A model generated the notes under the pieces. That model saw only the letters and a list, made by a program, of their open reading frames with translations. It had not been told where the DNA came from and ran no database searches. From Oscillospiraceae bacterium (GTDB taxonomy: Bacteria; Bacillota; Clostridia; Oscillospirales; UBA644), in assembly GCA_015067305.1 (NCBI GenBank), contig SVMT01000003.1:55972-119971 (forward strand): a stretch of 64,000 nt of DNA, read 5' to 3'. The position numbers were made by a program, and so were the translations under genes. How positions within the stretch are numbered: position 1 is the stretch's first letter; each line of letters starts with the position of its first letter. Positions 2,840-44,081 of the stretch are shown here, in pieces.

Positions 2840-4501
2840 TTATATTGTGTGTGATGTTCGTAACATTTCGTCGGCTGTCGCTAAAAGCGACTCCGTAATA
2901 TTTATACCGCCCATTATTCGGGCAAGTTCCTGTCGTCTTTCTTCATGCGAAAGTTGAGTGAGAACTGTATGTGTACGGTCATTGACCGTTTCCTTAACTA
3001 TTTTAAAATGAGTATCTGCATATGCTGCGATCTGTGCAAGATGGGTAATAACCAATACTTGTCCACAGGCAGACATTTCTTTAAGTTTTATAGCAACTTT
3101 CTGAGCCGCTTTACCGCTGATACCTGTATCTACTTCGTCAAAGATCATAGTCTGAATAGAATTATCAGCCAAAACATTTTTGATGCTCAACATAATTCTG
3201 GAAAGTTCGCCGCCGGAGGCGATCTTATTCAAGGGTTTAAGATCTTCACCTACATTTGCCGAAAGCAAAAATTCAACTTCATCAGAGCCTGTCTTATCAA
3301 ATTTCTTGTTTCTGATATTTACAGCAAATCGAACCTTAGGCATTTCAAGGAAACTCAAAGTTTCAATCATTGCGATCTCAAGTTTAGCAGCAGCCTCAAC
3401 TCTCGTTGCAGTCAAAGCCTGAGATTTAGCTCTCATTTCAGCCTTTGCAATTTTGAATTCTTCAGTCAGATCCTGCAATAAAACATCTGAGAATTCAATA
3501 CTTTCCAACTCTTTCTGGGCTTTGGCAAGATAATCGAAAATTGCCTCAATTGAATCACCGTATTTCATTTTTAAGCGATGTATAAAATCCAAACGTTCTT
3601 CTATCAGATCCAATTCATTCGGGTCAAAATCCAATTTATCAGAATACTGATTAAGATTTTCGATTATTTCATTTATATTTTCGGATATATCAATAAGCTT
3701 TTCATTTACATAGTTCTGACTGTTATCATATCGGGAAAGAAGTTTGGATTCCCTGATGCAACTTGCAATCATATCGTGAACATTAACATCGTCGTTTGAT
3801 AACAGATTTCTAACAGCGTTCAGACTATCAAGAATCTTCTCACTGTTTGCCAGGATCTCCTGTCTTTTTTCTAACTGCTTATCTTCGTCCTCTTTAAGTG
3901 CCGCAGTTTCAATTTCATTTATATGATATTTAAGGATCTCTATCCTTTTCTCTTTTTCACTTTCATTTGCAGAAAGAGCTTCAATTTTACGTTTAATTCC
4001 GATTGCTTTACAATAAGCTTCATAATACTCGTTTTTTACAGCTTCATTTTTAGCGTATTTATCTAAATAATAAATATGTACTTCAGGGTCAAGCAAAGCA
4101 GTATTATCATGTTGTCCATGGATATTGACAAGCTTTGTACCAATCTCTCGTAATATCGAAACGCTTACAGGACGGCCGTTTATTCTTGCAACACTTTTTC
4201 CTTCAGCAGAAAGTTCTCTTGAAAGGATGACTTCAGGATCGGCTCCATAACCGAGTTCCTCCAACTTATTACAAATAGATTCGTCTATATCAGTAAATAC
4301 TGCGCTGACAAAAGCTTTCTTCTCCCCTGTTCGTACCATATCACGTGACACACGCTCACCAAGGAGCATATTTATTGCATCAATTATGATACTTTTACCT
4401 GCACCGGTTTCACCAGTCAACACAACGAACCCCGAAGTTATTTCAACATCGAGGCTATCAATAATTGCTATATTTTCAATGTGAAGATTGGTCAACATCA
4501 C
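2840..4501 (-). CDS. recN: DNA repair protein RecN
   Basis: SMC-like ATPase: MLTNLHIENIAIIDSLDVEITSGFVVLTGETGAGKSIIIDAI, LSGGE-like ASGGELSRIMLSIK, and FDEVDTGISG. Confidence 0.95.
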   Translation of the reverse strand: MMLTNLHIENIAIIDSLDVEITSGFVVLTGETGAGKSIIIDAINMLLGERVSRDMVRTGEKKAFVSAVFTDIDESICNKLEELGYGADPEVILSRELSAEGKSVARINGRPVSVSILREIGTKLVNIHGQHDNTALLDPEVHIYYLDKYAKNEAVKNEYYEAYCKAIGIKRKIEALSANESEKEKRIEILKYHINEIETAALKEDEDKQLEKRQEILANSEKILDSLNAVRNLLSNDDVNVHDMIASCIRESKLLSRYDNSQNYVNEKLIDISENINEIIENLNQYSDKLDFDPNELDLIEERLDFIHRLKMKYGDSIEAIFDYLAKAQKELESIEFSDVLLQDLTEEFKIAKAEMRAKSQALTATRVEAAAKLEIAMIETLSFLEMPKVRFAVNIRNKKFDKTGSDEVEFLLSANVGEDLKPLNKIASGGELSRIMLSIKNVLADNSIQTMIFDEVDTGISGKAAQKVAIKLKEMSACGQVLVITHLAQIAAYADTHFKIVKETVNDRTHTVLTQLSHEERRQELARIMGGINITESLLATADEMLRTSHTI

Positions 4502-4512
4502 TACTCACCGCT

Positions 4513-4980
4513 TTAAGCGTTTAAAATATTAGTTATATTATCTACGATAGACTTAGCAATATCTATCGATTTCGCAGCTATAAATATAGTATCATCACCG
4601 GCTATCGTTCCTACTATCTCACCGTTATCAAGCGTATCTATTGCAGCACAAGCCCCCTGGGCCATACCGGCAAAACATTTTACGACAACAAGATTCATTG
4701 CATTATCTACAGAAACGATACTATCTCTCATTATACTGTATGTTTTGGAAGGCATTGGCTTTTTGCCGTCCCCCTGAGAATCAGAACATTCATATCTATA
4801 CTTATTTTCATTAGTAAGAGTTTTATAGAGATGCAATTCTTTAATATCTCTTGAAACAGTTGCTTGAGTTGTTTGGAAACCGGATTGAATCAAAAGCTCC
4901 GTAAGCTCATCCTGGGTTTCGACGGGAGTTGATTTAATTATCTCAAGTATACGCGCATGGCGTTTTTCTTTATATTTCAC
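4513..4980 (-). CDS. argR: Arginine repressor
   Basis: 155 aa; QATVSRDIKELHL HTH motif and C-terminal GTIAGDDTIF motif. Confidence 0.93.
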   Translation of the reverse strand: MKYKEKRHARILEIIKSTPVETQDELTELLIQSGFQTTQATVSRDIKELHLYKTLTNENKYRYECSDSQGDGKKPMPSKTYSIMRDSIVSVDNAMNLVVVKCFAGMAQGACAAIDTLDNGEIVGTIAGDDTIFIAAKSIDIAKSIVDNITNILNA

Positions 4981-4990
4981 GACTGACCCC

Positions 4991-5821
4991 TTACTTTATT
5001 TTCTTGGAAAGTATATTATAAAATGAATCATTATCAAATGTAATAGTTTTTATTTTCTTTTCAGCTAAACGGACTTGTACTACATCATCAGCTTCAAGTT
5101 GGAAATTGTCAAGACCATCTATAGTTAGGTAGCCCACATTGCCTCTTCCAGGTGTTGAGGCTGCTTCAAGAACCGACGAGTCCTTAAAAAGAATACTTCT
5201 GCCATTAAATGAATGAGCACAAATTGGAGTTACTGCAATAGTTTCAAGCTCCGTATCTATTATTGGTCCCCCTGCTGAAAGGGAGTATGCTGTTGAGCCT
5301 GTAGGAGTTGAAAAAATCAATCCGTCTGCCCTGTAAGATGTTATTTCCTGACCGTTGCAATACAAATTTATATTCATAATCTGCGTCCAGTTACCGTGTG
5401 AAATTACTGCATCATTCAAAGCAATTACATCTTTACAGATAGTTCTGTTTTCATTTCCTGCCGAAATATTAAGCACCGATCTATACTGAATACTATACTC
5501 ACCACTGAACAAAGCATCTAATTTAAAGTATTCCGTGGGTTCCATTGAAGCCATATAACCTGTCGTACCCATATTTATACCGAGAATAGGCTTATCATAA
5601 GCATATGCCGATTTTACGACCTTAAGTATAGTGCCGTCGCCACCGACAGTTATGATAAAATCACATTCATTTATTGCATCATCAATCTTTGTAAAAACTG
5701 AACATCCAACAAAAGAATCAGACAAAACAACTGCGCCTTTAGATGTCAAATATTCAACTATTCTTGAAGATACTTCAAATCCTTTGTCTTTCTCTGGATT
5801 AGAAATCAATGCAATTTTCAT
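4991..5821 (-). CDS. nadK: NAD kinase
   Basis: TVGGDGTILKV (GGDG motif), LGINMGTTGYMA, STPTGSTAYSLSAGGPI. Start at internal Met (MKIALISNP) is more likely than the track start 5833. Confidence 0.93.
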   Translation of the reverse strand: MKIALISNPEKDKGFEVSSRIVEYLTSKGAVVLSDSFVGCSVFTKIDDAINECDFIITVGGDGTILKVVKSAYAYDKPILGINMGTTGYMASMEPTEYFKLDALFSGEYSIQYRSVLNISAGNENRTICKDVIALNDAVISHGNWTQIMNINLYCNGQEITSYRADGLIFSTPTGSTAYSLSAGGPIIDTELETIAVTPICAHSFNGRSILFKDSSVLEAASTPGRGNVGYLTIDGLDNFQLEADDVVQVRLAEKKIKTITFDNDSFYNILSKKIK

Positions 5822-5848
5822 TGTAATTCGCACTCCGTAAGTAATAAA

Positions 5849-6619
5849 TCACAGATTTTTTAATTCTGTATCAAATAAAGTCTTTATCAGTTCATTGATA
5901 GATCGCTTGTTTTCGGAATAACTGAAATACGAAATAAACTCTGTATTACCGTCTCCGCCTTTGATTGGAGAAACTGAAATACCATTCAAATTCAAACCAT
6001 ACCTTAAAAACTCTTCAGCAACATTGGAGATAACAGTTTTATATTGACTTTTATCTTTTACTATACCACTCTTATTTGTTTTGGCATTTTCAAATTGAGG
6101 CTTGATCAAACATATCAAATGAGTTGGCTTAAATTCAGCTATCTTATATGCAATCTTTTCAAGTGAAATAAAAGAAACGTCAACAACTATAATATCTACA
6201 GGATCAAAATCTGCAGGATCACAATCTTTTATATTTGTATTTTCAAGATTTACTACCCTATCATCATTTACAAGTTTTTCTGCAAGCTGACCATGTCCAA
6301 CATCTATGGAATATACTTTTGTAGCACCATTTTGAAGTAAACAATCAGTAAAACCGCCTGTTGAAGCACCAATATCCATCGCAATCGTGTCTTTAATATT
6401 TAAACCAAATACATTGATTGCTTTTTCAAGCTTAAGCCCACCACGTCCGACATATTTTAAATAATCGTTTATTTCAATGGAAACTTTTTCACATACTTCT
6501 AAAGAAGCTTTATTTACAACTGTTCCGTCAATAAAAACACAACCCTCTTTGATCAATGCCTGTGCATACTGACGGCTTTTTAATGAAAACTTTTCCTGAA
6601 TGTATTTATCTAATCTCAT
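5849..6619 (-). CDS. tlyA: TlyA family S4/FtsJ-type RNA methyltransferase
   Basis: N-terminal S4 (MRLDKYIQEKFSLKSRQYAQALIKEG), then AMDIGASTGGFTDCLLQNGA SAM-binding motif. Confidence 0.92.
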   Translation of the reverse strand: MRLDKYIQEKFSLKSRQYAQALIKEGCVFIDGTVVNKASLEVCEKVSIEINDYLKYVGRGGLKLEKAINVFGLNIKDTIAMDIGASTGGFTDCLLQNGATKVYSIDVGHGQLAEKLVNDDRVVNLENTNIKDCDPADFDPVDIIVVDVSFISLEKIAYKIAEFKPTHLICLIKPQFENAKTNKSGIVKDKSQYKTVISNVAEEFLRYGLNLNGISVSPIKGGDGNTEFISYFSYSENKRSINELIKTLFDTELKNL

Positions 6620-7218
6620 TTTTTATTTTTACTGAAGAATCTTTCCGGAACAATAAAACATAGTATCCTTCCGGCAATATATATTATGTTTTCGCAATAA
6701 TTCATAGCAAAATTCTTACCCAATGCCTTACCTCCAATGGTAAGAGCCGCATTAAAAGCAGTCATAAGCATCGCAGAAAGTATTTCAGGAATCGGCAGAA
6801 CAGCTGAAATTTCAACAGCTATTACTGCAGTCATCGTACCACTGATGATACCGCAAATATCGCCGACGACATCATTGCAAATATTTGATACCGTAGAAGC
6901 TTTAGTTACAAGATACAGACAAGCCTTTGCCCCTACGACCTTTCTGGCCGCCATTGAATTAAATGGCTTGGGGTCTGCGGCAGTTACAGCTGTACCAAGA
7001 AGGTCGAAAAGAATTCCCAAAAAAATAAACAGCAAAAGCAAGATAAAAGCGATAACAACATTTACTTCACTGAGTGCACTTTTTGAAATATATGATAAAG
7101 TCGCCGAAATACAGAACGACAACACCATTACTTTTATGACCCATGAATGATTACCGTTGCTCTTTTTTGTATCCTTTTGCTGCTTTTTAGGTCGGGGGGA
7201 ATTATCTGAATTTTCCAA
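6616..7218 (-). CDS. oapA: OapA-like (OLE-associated protein A) small multi-TM DUF21/CNNM-like membrane protein
   Basis: Multi-TM protein with core FDLLGTAVTAADPKPFNSMAARKVVGAKACLYLVTKASTVSNICNDVVGDICGIISGT. Lies directly downstream of the OLE-like RNA and overlaps tlyA. TTG start at 7218 has SD AAAGGTG (7225-7231) at 6-nt spacing; the track start (7326) lies inside the structured RNA. Confidence 0.8.
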   Translation of the reverse strand: MENSDNSPRPKKQQKDTKKSNGNHSWVIKVMVLSFCISATLSYISKSALSEVNVVIAFILLLLFIFLGILFDLLGTAVTAADPKPFNSMAARKVVGAKACLYLVTKASTVSNICNDVVGDICGIISGTMTAVIAVEISAVLPIPEILSAMLMTAFNAALTIGGKALGKNFAMNYCENIIYIAGRILCFIVPERFFSKNKK

Positions 7219-7254
7219 AACATTCACCTTTATGTATGATAATAAAATATAGAG

Positions 7255-7875
7255 ATGATAATATTCAAAGTAAATCTTGCGCCTTAGGTCAAGTAGGTTT
7301 CCCCATACCCTACCTGTTGTCGCCAATCAGGCAGTTTCCTTTTGAAGGGTACGGTACCGCGTTACCGACGATACGACTTGATTGCCACTTAGAACGCACT
7401 GCAATCCCTTGAATACAGAATAAATAATTCTCAGTCTAGGAGTTTTCCTCAACAGTATCATGATACTCTTAGTCTCTTTTGCAGATATGATTTCTTAACG
7501 CAAAGCACTATATACTGTGGCCGCAGTATATAGCCCGAACCGTTATCCGCCATATCCACTCAAGACAGGCTACTCTGCATACAACCGAACTCATACATCA
7601 GCACTTCTAATGCTGATGCGTAAATTGCTTCAAAGAGAACGACCGCATTGCAGGTTCAATCCTGAGTCGTGGTAAGCAAATCCACAAGTACAGGTCTCCG
7701 TGAGTGAAGGGACATTAACTGTATGCCATTACAGATGCCCGGCACTCTACCTTCCAGCACCCACCCCAGACTGGGCGTAAGAAGCAAGCACAAGAAGTTT
7801 CATCGATATGCCCTTCGGTTGATTTTTAGGCCAACCCTGGTAGTCCACAATACCGACTAGAATACTGTATCATCA
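7255..7875 (-). ncRNA. ole: OLE RNA (Ornate Large Extremophilic RNA)-like large structured non-coding RNA; ends approximate
   Basis: ~620 nt with no supported ORF, higher GC than flanking intergenic DNA, and many stems: 10-bp perfect CTATATACTG/CAGTATATAG (7508-7533), CATCAGCA/TGCTGATG (7596-7618), GGTTG/CAACC (7817-7836), GTAGG/CCTAC (7293-7313). Sits between the ispA-side unit and an OapA-like gene, the hallmark OLE context. Confidence 0.83.
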
Positions 7876-7881
7876 AAGATA

Positions 7882-7910
7882 ATTATAGCATAAAAAAACG
7901 TTTTATGCAA
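7882..7910 (-). promoter_or_regulatory. Sigma70/SigA-type promoter for the OLE-like RNA/oapA unit
   Basis: On minus strand TTGCAT (7905-7910), 17-nt spacer, TATAAT (7882-7887). Confidence 0.72.
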
Positions 7911-7980
7911 TAGAAAATTGTATATTTTAATTTTTGTTAAGATTTTTTCCGATTTTTTTATGCAAACATATTACAAAACA

Positions 7981-8013
7981 AGATCACTTCATACTTTCAG
8001 TATAAAGTGACCT
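7981..8013 (-). terminator. Intrinsic terminator downstream of the DUF212 gene
   Basis: Minus strand AGGTCACTT-TATACTGAAAGTATG-AAGTGATCT hairpin followed by TGTTTTGT; 6 nt after the 8020 CDS end. Confidence 0.65.
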
Positions 8014-8019
8014 CATATA

Positions 8020-8472
8020 TTATTTTAAAAATAAGATCCAATACAACAATGAAATGATACAACCAAGAACACAACCCATAGCAACTTCAAGTTTAGTATG
8101 CCCCATCAACTCTTTGAATCGTTTTGATCTGATCTCAAAATTGTCAACATTCCAGTTTTCGATGATCTGGTTTATTATCTTTGCCTGTTCTCCAACTTCA
8201 TAGCGTACATTTGCCGCATCATAAACAGTAATAAACGCAAATGATGCTGCTAAAGCAAATTCAACAGAGGCAAATCCTTTCAAGATAAATATCATCGAAA
8301 CCAAAGCGGAAACCAATGCACTGTGAGAACTGGGCATACCACCCGAACCGAAAAATCTGTCCAATCGAAGTTTTCGGTCAATTATACTCTCAGCTACGCC
8401 TTTGATCGCCTGTGCAAAAAACCACCCCAAAACAGCGCAATTAAGATAATGATTCGATAAAATTCCCAACAT
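8020..8472 (-). CDS. Divergent PAP2 family (DUF212, YuiD-like) membrane protein
   Basis: GSGGMPSSHSALVSALVS and DAANVRYEVGEQAKIINQ; 150 aa, multi-TM. Confidence 0.88.
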   Translation of the reverse strand: MLGILSNHYLNCAVLGWFFAQAIKGVAESIIDRKLRLDRFFGSGGMPSSHSALVSALVSMIFILKGFASVEFALAASFAFITVYDAANVRYEVGEQAKIINQIIENWNVDNFEIRSKRFKELMGHTKLEVAMGCVLGCIISLLYWILFLK

Positions 8473-8492: not shown

Positions 8493-9374
8493 TCAGTTAT
8501 TTCTCGATGCCAAATATACCGCCAAGGTCTGAAGGAAACCGTTTTTATCATAAGGTTTTACAGCCTCTATCGCTTTTTGTGTATAATCTTCTACCAATTT
8601 TTGAGACTGATCCAACCCATATATATTAACAAATGTAGTTTTTTCTTCTGCGGCATCTTTACCGAGAGTTTTACCCATATCTTCAATTGTTCCCGAAACA
8701 TCAAGAATATCATCACGGATCTGGAATGCCAAACCAATATTATCAGAATATATTTCTGCTGCCTTAAAAACATCATCTGATGCGTCAGCCGCCAAACAAC
8801 CAAGTAAAGCAGAAGCTTTTAGCATTGCAGCTGTTTTCAAATTATGTATATTCAAAACTTCAGATTCAGTAAGTCCCGGCTTATTTTCAAGATCAAGGAC
8901 TTGTCCACGGACTATACCGTTTTTACCTGAGGCATCAAGAAGGATTCTGATACCTTCAATGATCTGTTTATCTGATAGACCTGTTTCATATCCGTCAGAA
9001 ATGATCCAAGAAAAAGCTTCACCGTAAAGTCCCATTGCCGCAAGAGCCGCCGTAGATTCTCCAAATACAACATGGTTCGTAGGAATTCCTCTGCGCAAAG
9101 AATCGTTATCCATAAACGGCATATCATCAAAGATAAGTGAATATGTATGAACCATTTCAAGCGCACAAGCAAAAGGTAAAGCCTTATCTGCATCATTTGA
9201 GACCATATCGCAAAATGCAAGACAGATAATAGGCCTTATTCTCTTTCCACCTGCAAAAATACTATACCTTAATGCGGAATCAAGTTTGTCACTCTTATTT
9301 TCAGGGAGATAACGTTCCAACGTACTGTTTATCTTCTCAGAATACATTTCAATATAATCATTCAACGTCTTCAT
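8493..9374 (-). CDS. ispA: Polyprenyl (farnesyl/geranyl) diphosphate synthase
   Basis: GGKRIRPIICLAF, SLIFDDMPFMDNDSLRRGIPTNH (FARM), IRDDILDVSG (SARM). Start MKTLNDYIEM chosen. Confidence 0.94.
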   Translation of the reverse strand: MKTLNDYIEMYSEKINSTLERYLPENKSDKLDSALRYSIFAGGKRIRPIICLAFCDMVSNDADKALPFACALEMVHTYSLIFDDMPFMDNDSLRRGIPTNHVVFGESTAALAAMGLYGEAFSWIISDGYETGLSDKQIIEGIRILLDASGKNGIVRGQVLDLENKPGLTESEVLNIHNLKTAAMLKASALLGCLAADASDDVFKAAEIYSDNIGLAFQIRDDILDVSGTIEDMGKTLGKDAAEEKTTFVNIYGLDQSQKLVEDYTQKAIEAVKPYDKNGFLQTLAVYLASRNN

Positions 9375-9588
9375 CTTCATCGACCTCCGTAACCATTTGG
9401 ATCCTTTGTTTGGCATTCTTTATTCTATCGGAACACAATTCAGCTAGTTTGGTACCTTCAGAAAAAAGTTCTAACGCTTCATCAAGTCCACATTCGCCCT
9501 TTGATAAAATCAAGTTTATTTCCTGTATGCGATTTAATGCATCTTCAAATTTTAATTCTTCAGTTTTTGATGATTTCCTCTGCGGCAC
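9358..9588 (-). CDS. xseB: Exodeoxyribonuclease VII small subunit
   Basis: 76 aa; FEDALNRIQEINLILSKGECGLDEALELFSEGTKLAELCSDRI; between xseA and ispA. Confidence 0.93.
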   Translation of the reverse strand: MPQRKSSKTEELKFEDALNRIQEINLILSKGECGLDEALELFSEGTKLAELCSDRIKNAKQRIQMVTEVDEDEDVE

Positions 9589-10756
9589 CTTTAACTACCC
9601 CATCTCTCATTTTCATTTCAAATTTTTCGCCTATAATAATATCATTTATACTTTTCAAAACCTTACCGTCCTTTGAGGGTAAGGCAAACCCCCTCATCAA
9701 CACCGAAAGAGGATTCAACGCTTCAAGTTTTTCACATTCATTTATTATTTCTCGCTCTTTGACATTGATCATATGCTTTATATATGAACCCAAATTAGCT
9801 TCTGCATTTTTAAACATTTGTTCTTTGGAAAAGATAACTGATGATATACTCAAGCCCGAAGAACAAATTTCTATCAGATGTTCATACTTATATACAAGAT
9901 CCTGAACAGCTCTTGCCATAGAAGTTTTTTGATATTCCAGTTCATCAAGAATTGAATCTCTGTGAGGCACGACCAATTCAGCAGCGGCAGAAGGTGTAGG
10001 GGCTCTGAGATCAGCAACAAAATCAATTATAGTAAAATCAATTTCATGTCCGACCGCACTGATTATAGGAATATCCGATTCAAAAACTGTCCAAGCAAGC
10101 TTTTCACTGTTAAACTCTATGAGATCTTCATATGAACCGCCGCCACGTGTAACGATTATAACATCCACATCTTTTGTTTCATTAAAATGATTTATCGCTT
10201 CTATTACAGTTTCTGCGGCACCAAGCCCTTGAACCTGACAAGGAAACAACACCGGAACTGCTAAAGGATAACGACGCTCAAGAATACTGATAACATCAAA
10301 GAATGCAGCACCTGTCGGAGAAGTAACGATTCCAATACGTTCCGGATATTCAGGAATCGGTTTTTTATACTGAGGATCAAAGAGTCCTAATTCTTCAAGT
10401 TTATCTTTGAGCTTATTGAATGCCGCCTGATATGCCCCAATACCGTCAGGTGCAATATCTTCCGCATACAGTTGATAAGTACCGTCACGTTCATAAAGGG
10501 ATACTCGTCCCTTTACAAAAACAGAGATTCCGTCCTCCAGAAAAAAAGCAAGCCTGTCTGCATTTGATTTAAACATTACTGTTTTGATTGCAGCATTTGA
10601 ATCTTTCAAAGTAAAGTAAACATGTCCGCTTTTCAAATGTCTGGTAAAATTAGATATCTCACCTTTTACAGTCACAGAACGAAGATTCATATCACTTTCG
10701 ATAAGAGAACGTGTATACATATTCAATTGTGAAACTGTAAGCGGTTTAGGATTCAT
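9560..10756 (-). CDS. xseA: Exodeoxyribonuclease VII large subunit
   Basis: VKGEISNFTRHLKSGHVYFTLKD OB fold, RIGIVTSPTGAAFFDVISILERRYP, TRGGGSYEDLIEFN. Confidence 0.95.
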   Translation of the reverse strand: MNPKPLTVSQLNMYTRSLIESDMNLRSVTVKGEISNFTRHLKSGHVYFTLKDSNAAIKTVMFKSNADRLAFFLEDGISVFVKGRVSLYERDGTYQLYAEDIAPDGIGAYQAAFNKLKDKLEELGLFDPQYKKPIPEYPERIGIVTSPTGAAFFDVISILERRYPLAVPVLFPCQVQGLGAAETVIEAINHFNETKDVDVIIVTRGGGSYEDLIEFNSEKLAWTVFESDIPIISAVGHEIDFTIIDFVADLRAPTPSAAAELVVPHRDSILDELEYQKTSMARAVQDLVYKYEHLIEICSSGLSISSVIFSKEQMFKNAEANLGSYIKHMINVKEREIINECEKLEALNPLSVLMRGFALPSKDGKVLKSINDIIIGEKFEMKMRDGVVKGAAEEIIKN

Positions 10757-43873: not shown

Positions 43874-43919
43874 TAACATTACGCAGAAAACATACGAATA
43901 TAAAATCCATATGAACAAA

Positions 43920-44032
43920 AGTTTCTTTCATCCGGACTTTAACCGTCGGCACAGGAATCTCACCTGTTCGGCACCTGAAAAGTGTTAGCGGGCTTTACCG
44001 CCGGTAGAGAATTACACTCAACCCCAAAACTT
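43920..44032 (-). promoter_or_regulatory. FMN riboswitch (RFN element)
   Basis: Minus strand ...GGGGTTGAGTGTAATTCTCTACCGGCGGTAAAGCCCGCTAACACTTTTCAGGTGCCGAACAGGTGAGATTCCTGTGCCGACGGTTAAAGTCCGGATGAAAGAAAC matches RFN conserved core. Confidence 0.95.
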
Positions 44033-44081
44033 AAGTATATTATACTACATTATATGCAGTTTGTCAATACCTTGAGCAGAA

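Follow-up and report, generated by a model that had tools for sequence, protein, structure and literature searches.

A full-length OLE RNA gene and its partner gene oapA in an Oscillospiraceae bacterium, with a comparative view of the OLE particle in its order

OLE RNAs are among the largest and least understood of the structured bacterial RNAs. The stretch of DNA considered here, referred to as the window, comprises 64,000 nucleotides of a draft genome of an Oscillospiraceae bacterium, and within it a non-coding RNA gene and the coding sequences around it are read from the minus strand in the order xseA-xseB-ispA-DUF212-OLE-oapA-tlyA-nadK-argR-recN. The features of this cluster are as follows.

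9560-10756, minus strand: xseA (TIGR00237)
9358-9588, minus strand: xseB (TIGR01280)
8493-9416, minus strand: ispA, farnesyl diphosphate synthase (NF045485, over cut-off)
8020-8472, minus strand: DUF212 (divergent PAP2) gene directly upstream of ole (PF02681, E 3.2e-44)
7978-8016, minus strand: terminator-like hairpin 3' of the DUF212 gene and before ole (pattern scan)
7882-7890, minus strand: predicted extended -10 promoter of ole, TGcTATAAT (from sequence)
7245-7874, minus strand: OLE RNA gene, ole (RF01071 match 7239-7889; transcript limits deduced from the promoter and P1)
6616-7218, minus strand: oapA, encoding the 200-aa membrane protein OapA (TTG start; Shine-Dalgarno AAGGTGA at 7224-7230)
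5849-6619, minus strand: tlyA (TIGR00478, over cut-off)
4991-5833, minus strand: nadK (NAD kinase family matches, none over equivalog cut-offs)
4513-4980, minus strand: argR (TIGR01529)
2840-4501, minus strand: recN (TIGR00634)

When the whole window was searched with cmscan against Rfam 15, two matches exceeded their gathering scores. The OLE model (RF01071, gathering score 50 bits) matched 7889-7239 on the minus strand over model positions 1-616, with 444 bits and an E-value of 4.4e-127, and the same covariance-model search of the whole assembly gave a single OLE copy. An FMN riboswitch (RF00050) is found at 43916-44035 on the minus strand (103 bits, E 7.7e-23). An earlier sequence-only reading of the window had proposed a structured non-coding RNA of the OLE type at this place and on this strand, with limits at 7255-7875, and had named a full-length covariance-model match as the check; the RF01071 match runs from end to end, and the proposed limits agree within one base with those derived from P1 and the promoter. 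That reading had also described the segment as free of credible open reading frames and locally richer in G and C, and both descriptions hold: the longest frames inside the RNA reach at most 58 aa if one sets aside a TTG-initiated extension of oapA that runs into it from its upstream side, and the RNA has 45% G+C where the whole window has 37%. We therefore hold with high confidence that 7245-7874 on the minus strand is a full-length OLE RNA gene accompanied by its partner gene oapA. Membership in the OLE class is essentially certain; the class, the partner, the neighbourhood and the occurrence in such Clostridia were all known before.

The RNA would be transcribed from its own promoter, starting near 7874 and extending for roughly 625 nt, because a TATAAT box with a preceding TG is located at 7882-7890. 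Of 116 related OLE loci, 82 have the pattern TGnTAnnnT at the corresponding place. Terminator-like sites such as the hairpin at 7978-8016 were located by a pattern scan whose count did not rise above the shuffle mean. Only about 20 nt separate the 3' end of the RNA from the start codon of oapA, whose ribosome-binding site is thus close by, which is the arrangement to be expected if the element were a cis-regulatory leader of oapA instead of a trans-acting RNA. The size and complexity of the element, its conserved dimer contacts and its OapC site fit a trans-acting OLE particle, and OLE in Halalkalibacterium halodurans is a separate and very abundant RNA (PMC9723947), so that a leader is, in our estimation, highly unlikely. 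The RNA is built from the following elements.

7868-7874, minus strand: 5' strand of P1, GAUGAUA (perfect 7-bp complement of 7254-7260)
7842-7855, minus strand: 5' strand of P3 (14-pair duplex with 7453-7472; covariation)
7817-7836, minus strand: P4 hairpin with the conserved CUAAAAAU loop and A-rich L4 (dimer bridge B1 by homology)
7797-7809, minus strand: J4a/5 with the kink-turn bulge AUC-GAU-GAA (canonical GAU triplet; OapC site by homology)
7757-7791, minus strand: P5/P5.1 hairpin (loop ACGCCCAGU at 7770-7778, kissing partner of L6)
7722-7731, minus strand: L6/P6.1 loop UAAUGGCAUA (kissing partner of L5)
7693-7704, minus strand: J6/7 CUCACGGAGACC, the other strand of kink-turn 1b (GGAG in J6/7)
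7508-7533, minus strand: P9.3, a 10-bp stem with a self-complementary GGCC loop (symmetric kissing loop, bridge B3)
7453-7472, minus strand: 3' strand of P3, including the palindrome 7454-7467 (duplex with 7842-7855)
7319-7366, minus strand: P13/P14 region with GGUAAC and GGCGAC loops (OapB-binding region by homology)
7254-7260, minus strand: 3' strand of P1, UAUCAUC (pairs with 7868-7874)

The stems listed in the sequence-only reading can now be assigned in part. The stem at 7508-7533 is P9.3 and that at 7817-7836 is P4, while the palindrome at 7454-7467 belongs to the 3' strand of P3 and pairs with about 7842-7855. The stem at 7596-7618 falls in a variable insert of the OLE model. The one proposed at 7293-7313 was rejected as a consensus helix, since the model alignment uses its two strands in other helices.

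P3 is the helix that has been proposed to cross the membrane (PMC12265935). It is left unpaired in the Rfam OLE model, and was examined here by exchanging partner strands among homologous loci. In this comparison (95 unique pairs, 30 swaps) the mean duplex energy is -15.5 kcal/mol for true partners versus -7.0 kcal/mol for swapped ones, which bears out the covariation that an OLE assignment implied. The 5' strand is 17-19 nt long in all 113 of 113 RNAs and forms 10-16 pairs; across the 116 OLE RNAs of the order, P3 co-varies strongly at a near-constant length. The elements of the dimer contacts, namely the A-run of L4, the L5 and L6 loops and the P9.3 loop, are likewise present and conserved, and dimerisation is predicted from them. 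For example, L9.3 stays self-complementary at its core across the 116 RNAs, the core being GGCC or AGCT in 104 of them (GGCC in 92, AGCT in 12), and both the self-complementary L9.3 dimer loop and the L5-L6 kissing interaction have been described in the cryo-EM dimer (PMC12286853). The kink-turn elements for OapC are present as well, with AUC-GAU-GAA in J4a/5 and GGAG in J6/7.

The small, multi-TM, DUF21-like gene that the sequence-only reading placed directly after the RNA is indeed found there, and its product can be identified as OapA. OapA homologues directly follow OLE in all 19 of the 19 related loci with enough flanking sequence, and nine chosen homologues are 38-49% identical to the OapA of the window. 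The motif CNDVxGD is kept, C-N-D-x-x-G-D being invariant among the homologues, and the spacing of D116 and D120 equals that of D100 and D104 in the H. halodurans PM1 mutant. The OapA of the window is left unnamed by Pfam and NCBIfam at an E-value of 0.001, and a sequence search against solved structures gave no credible match. A CNNM profile matches eight of ten OapA members (best E 2.4e-7), the OapA of the window alone reaching an E-value of 0.069. In an AlphaFold2 model with a mean pLDDT of 80, the five best fold matches are all CNNM/CorC Mg2+ transporters, the best of them at a weak E-value of 0.04 and with query TM-scores of at most 0.56. Profile and model thus point to a CNNM-related transmembrane fold, one predicted to be without CBS and CorC_HlyC domains; the relation of OapA to CNNM has been published (PMC11332333).

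The neighbourhood expected for OLE is reproduced in its xseA-xseB-ispA and tlyA-nadK-argR-recN parts, while dxs, which had been expected too, lies outside the cluster. In other families of the order (loci L005, L007, L010, L014, L015 and L018) dxs directly follows oapA. In the window tlyA directly follows oapA, as it does in two loci of the same family (L009 and L011). Two genomes (L259 and L288) encode a relative of OapA with no OLE found in the fetched flank, at loci of more than 6 kb; these may be cases of oapA that lacks an OLE partner, or else their RNA may have diverged strongly.

The sequence-only reading had called for a search of the genome for OapB and OapC, and the latter was recovered. 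OapC is YbxF (PMC9723947), and an 80-aa gene for it lies between rpoC and rpsL (G000:C29:48307-48546; L033:1808-2050, plus strand), with a profile E-value of 1.8e-28 and with YbxF as the nearest solved structure (E 2.7e-6). The gene is kept here, whereas the remaining OLE carriers in this labelled genus and family have none at the rpoC-rpsL locus. A search for OapB in the 84.7% complete assembly found none, but infA and rplX, its neighbours in relatives, are missing too, so that its locus falls in an assembly gap; the search for rplX gave only a NusG-like KOW match. In most relatives an OapB orthologue lies between map and infA, and the best match of one such copy is PDB 7K9B, "OLE-associated protein B" (E 0.003). 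Among the OapB-like KOW proteins (L035-L064 and L077-L084), a longer C-terminal part with the pattern K-x-x-G-x-x-x-x-N-S/A-E-I/V-R-K-A tends to go with OLE carriers as opposed to non-carriers.

A further partner, bS21, binds a CCUCC anti-Shine-Dalgarno mimic in P6 in H. halodurans (PMC12054373). The genome encodes bS21. The mimic is absent from P6 of the window RNA, so binding of bS21 by this RNA is doubtful, and it is absent from 156 of the 165 OLE RNAs examined, so the mimic is not a defining feature in this order; the bS21 contact may be limited to lineages outside it. The missing mimic, together with the OapB gene not found in the assembly, is what might suggest a decayed OLE copy without function, one not built into a working particle any more. 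Relatives lack the mimic as well, however, and the RNA keeps all its conserved loops and junctions along with its compensated helices; oapA is undamaged, ole has a promoter, and the genome has no MpfA that could stand in, all of which makes decay very improbable. Least probable of all is one of the shortened forms described by Fernando and Breaker, variant 1 or variant 2 (P7-P9 shortened, or P7/P8 lost), with fewer protein partners: variants do occur in gut symbionts (PMC11332333) and this is an uncultured-type genome of about 2.3 Mb, but the match over positions 1-616, the presence of P7, P8 and P9, the long P9.3 and the OapC gene refute it almost completely. The RNA is thus best treated as an intact, full-length OLE RNA.

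The OapC site of this RNA was compared across the order. In 100 of 116 OLE RNAs the J4a/5 kink-turn bulge is GAU, the standard form that the window RNA also has, and in the other 16 it is UGU, GUU, UAU or UUU. All 16 RNAs with an altered bulge have a J5/6 of 28-47 nt with a hairpin, compared with the usual 13-17 nt. OapC is missing from 14 of these 16 genomes. In a wider set of 50 genomes, all eight altered RNAs without the hairpin come from genomes that lack OapC, and OapC is present with 11 of 20 altered RNAs, all 11 of them with the hairpin. Stratified by hairpin, Fisher's test of bulge against OapC gives p 1e-6 (no hairpin) and p 0.03 (hairpin). On a tree built without the bulge and hairpin columns, the bulge changes 8 times, OapC 20 times and the hairpin 4 times; the five supported independent pairs are too few for significance in a test of the OapC-bulge link, and independent pairs on the tree rarely go the opposite way. 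It is important to note that the calls of OapC absence rest on draft genomes.

Loss of OapC as a strict cause of both the bulge change and the J5/6 hairpin is rejected, given the 11 of 20 altered RNAs with OapC. A recent loss of OapC in a sister species is not claimed either, because the OLE of this genome is only 70-71% identical to that of OapC-less species of the labelled genus, a value as low as that between genera of the family. There is a small chance that the kink-turn is an evolving module in which OapC is lost in some lineages, the bulge changes and a J5/6 hairpin grows, and in which the hairpin may take over OapC's job of holding the kink. If so, the window species, with OapC, GAU and a short J5/6, would represent the ancestral state, and other members of the labelled genus the derived one. 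The association between OapC and the bulge is unproven, and we regard it as a lead and not as a result.

Of 59 relatives, 32 carry OLE, as do 117 of the 398 genomes sampled from the order. Since OLE is already listed in 2,822 Bacillota genomes (PMC11332333), the suggestion that a copy in a gut-type Clostridia genome would add to its distribution carries little weight. More informative is the relation to the Mg2+ exporter MpfA, for which a CorC_HlyC domain over cut-off served as the marker. This domain is encoded by 23 of 27 OLE-less relatives versus 2 of 32 OLE carriers, and the four OLE-less relatives without it are at most 77% complete; the present genome, which is 84.7% complete, has none. 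Within its own family, the OLE carriers have zero CorC_HlyC domains and the OLE-less genera (g3 and g7) have two or three. The mutual exclusion of OLE and MpfA is a published rule (PMC11332333), and it is reproduced here within a single family.

By homology with the OLE RNAs of H. halodurans and of clostridia, two OLE RNAs would dimerise by contacts of L4, of L5 with L6 and of the P9.3 GGCC loop, and an OapA dimer would sit beside P3/P4a and keep the RNA at the membrane or across it. The kink-turn at the P5 base would be the site of OapC, and the P12.2/P13 region that of OapB. Such a particle would help against membrane, cold, alcohol, energy and magnesium stress, and would do some or all of the work that the CNNM/CorC-type Mg2+ exporter MpfA does elsewhere. 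As the mechanism we consider it likeliest, and somewhat probable, that the particle controls Mg2+ and membrane functions in response to stress; by homology, the reading with the best support is that it stands in for MpfA in regulating stress, the membrane and Mg2+ balance.

OLE ranks among the largest bacterial RNAs for which no chemical function is known, in any species, and one more carrier among gut Clostridia leaves that function as it was before. The comparative set supports P3 as a covarying helix of near-constant length, as the membrane-crossing model needs, and the occurrence of OLE carriers with and without OapC in one labelled genus allows the role of OapC to be compared between relatives.

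Compared with known systems, the window RNA shares with the full-length OLE class (RF01071) the match over 616 positions, P1, P3, the A-run of L4, the L5/L6 loops, the kink-turn bulge, the GGCC loop of P9.3, the GGNRAC hairpins, the adjacent oapA and the gene neighbourhood. It differs from that class in a J5/6 of 13 nt without the consensus UUAAGG, in a P6 without the CCUCC mimic, in an insert of about 52 nt in the P8 region and in a cluster from which dxs is absent. Among the proteins, the locus of OapB/YbzG, the KOW protein of PDB 7K9B, is unassembled in this genome. OapC shares with OapC/YbxF, an L7Ae-type kink-turn binder, the rpoC-rpsL location and the RNA-binding motif GLKQSLKA, while being 28-43% identical to its orthologues. 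OapA, which differs from MpfA in being without the CBS and CorC_HlyC domains, has in common with OapA proteins and the CNNM transmembrane domain (PF01595) that it is a small multi-helix membrane protein with the CNDVxGD motif and a CNNM-like predicted fold.
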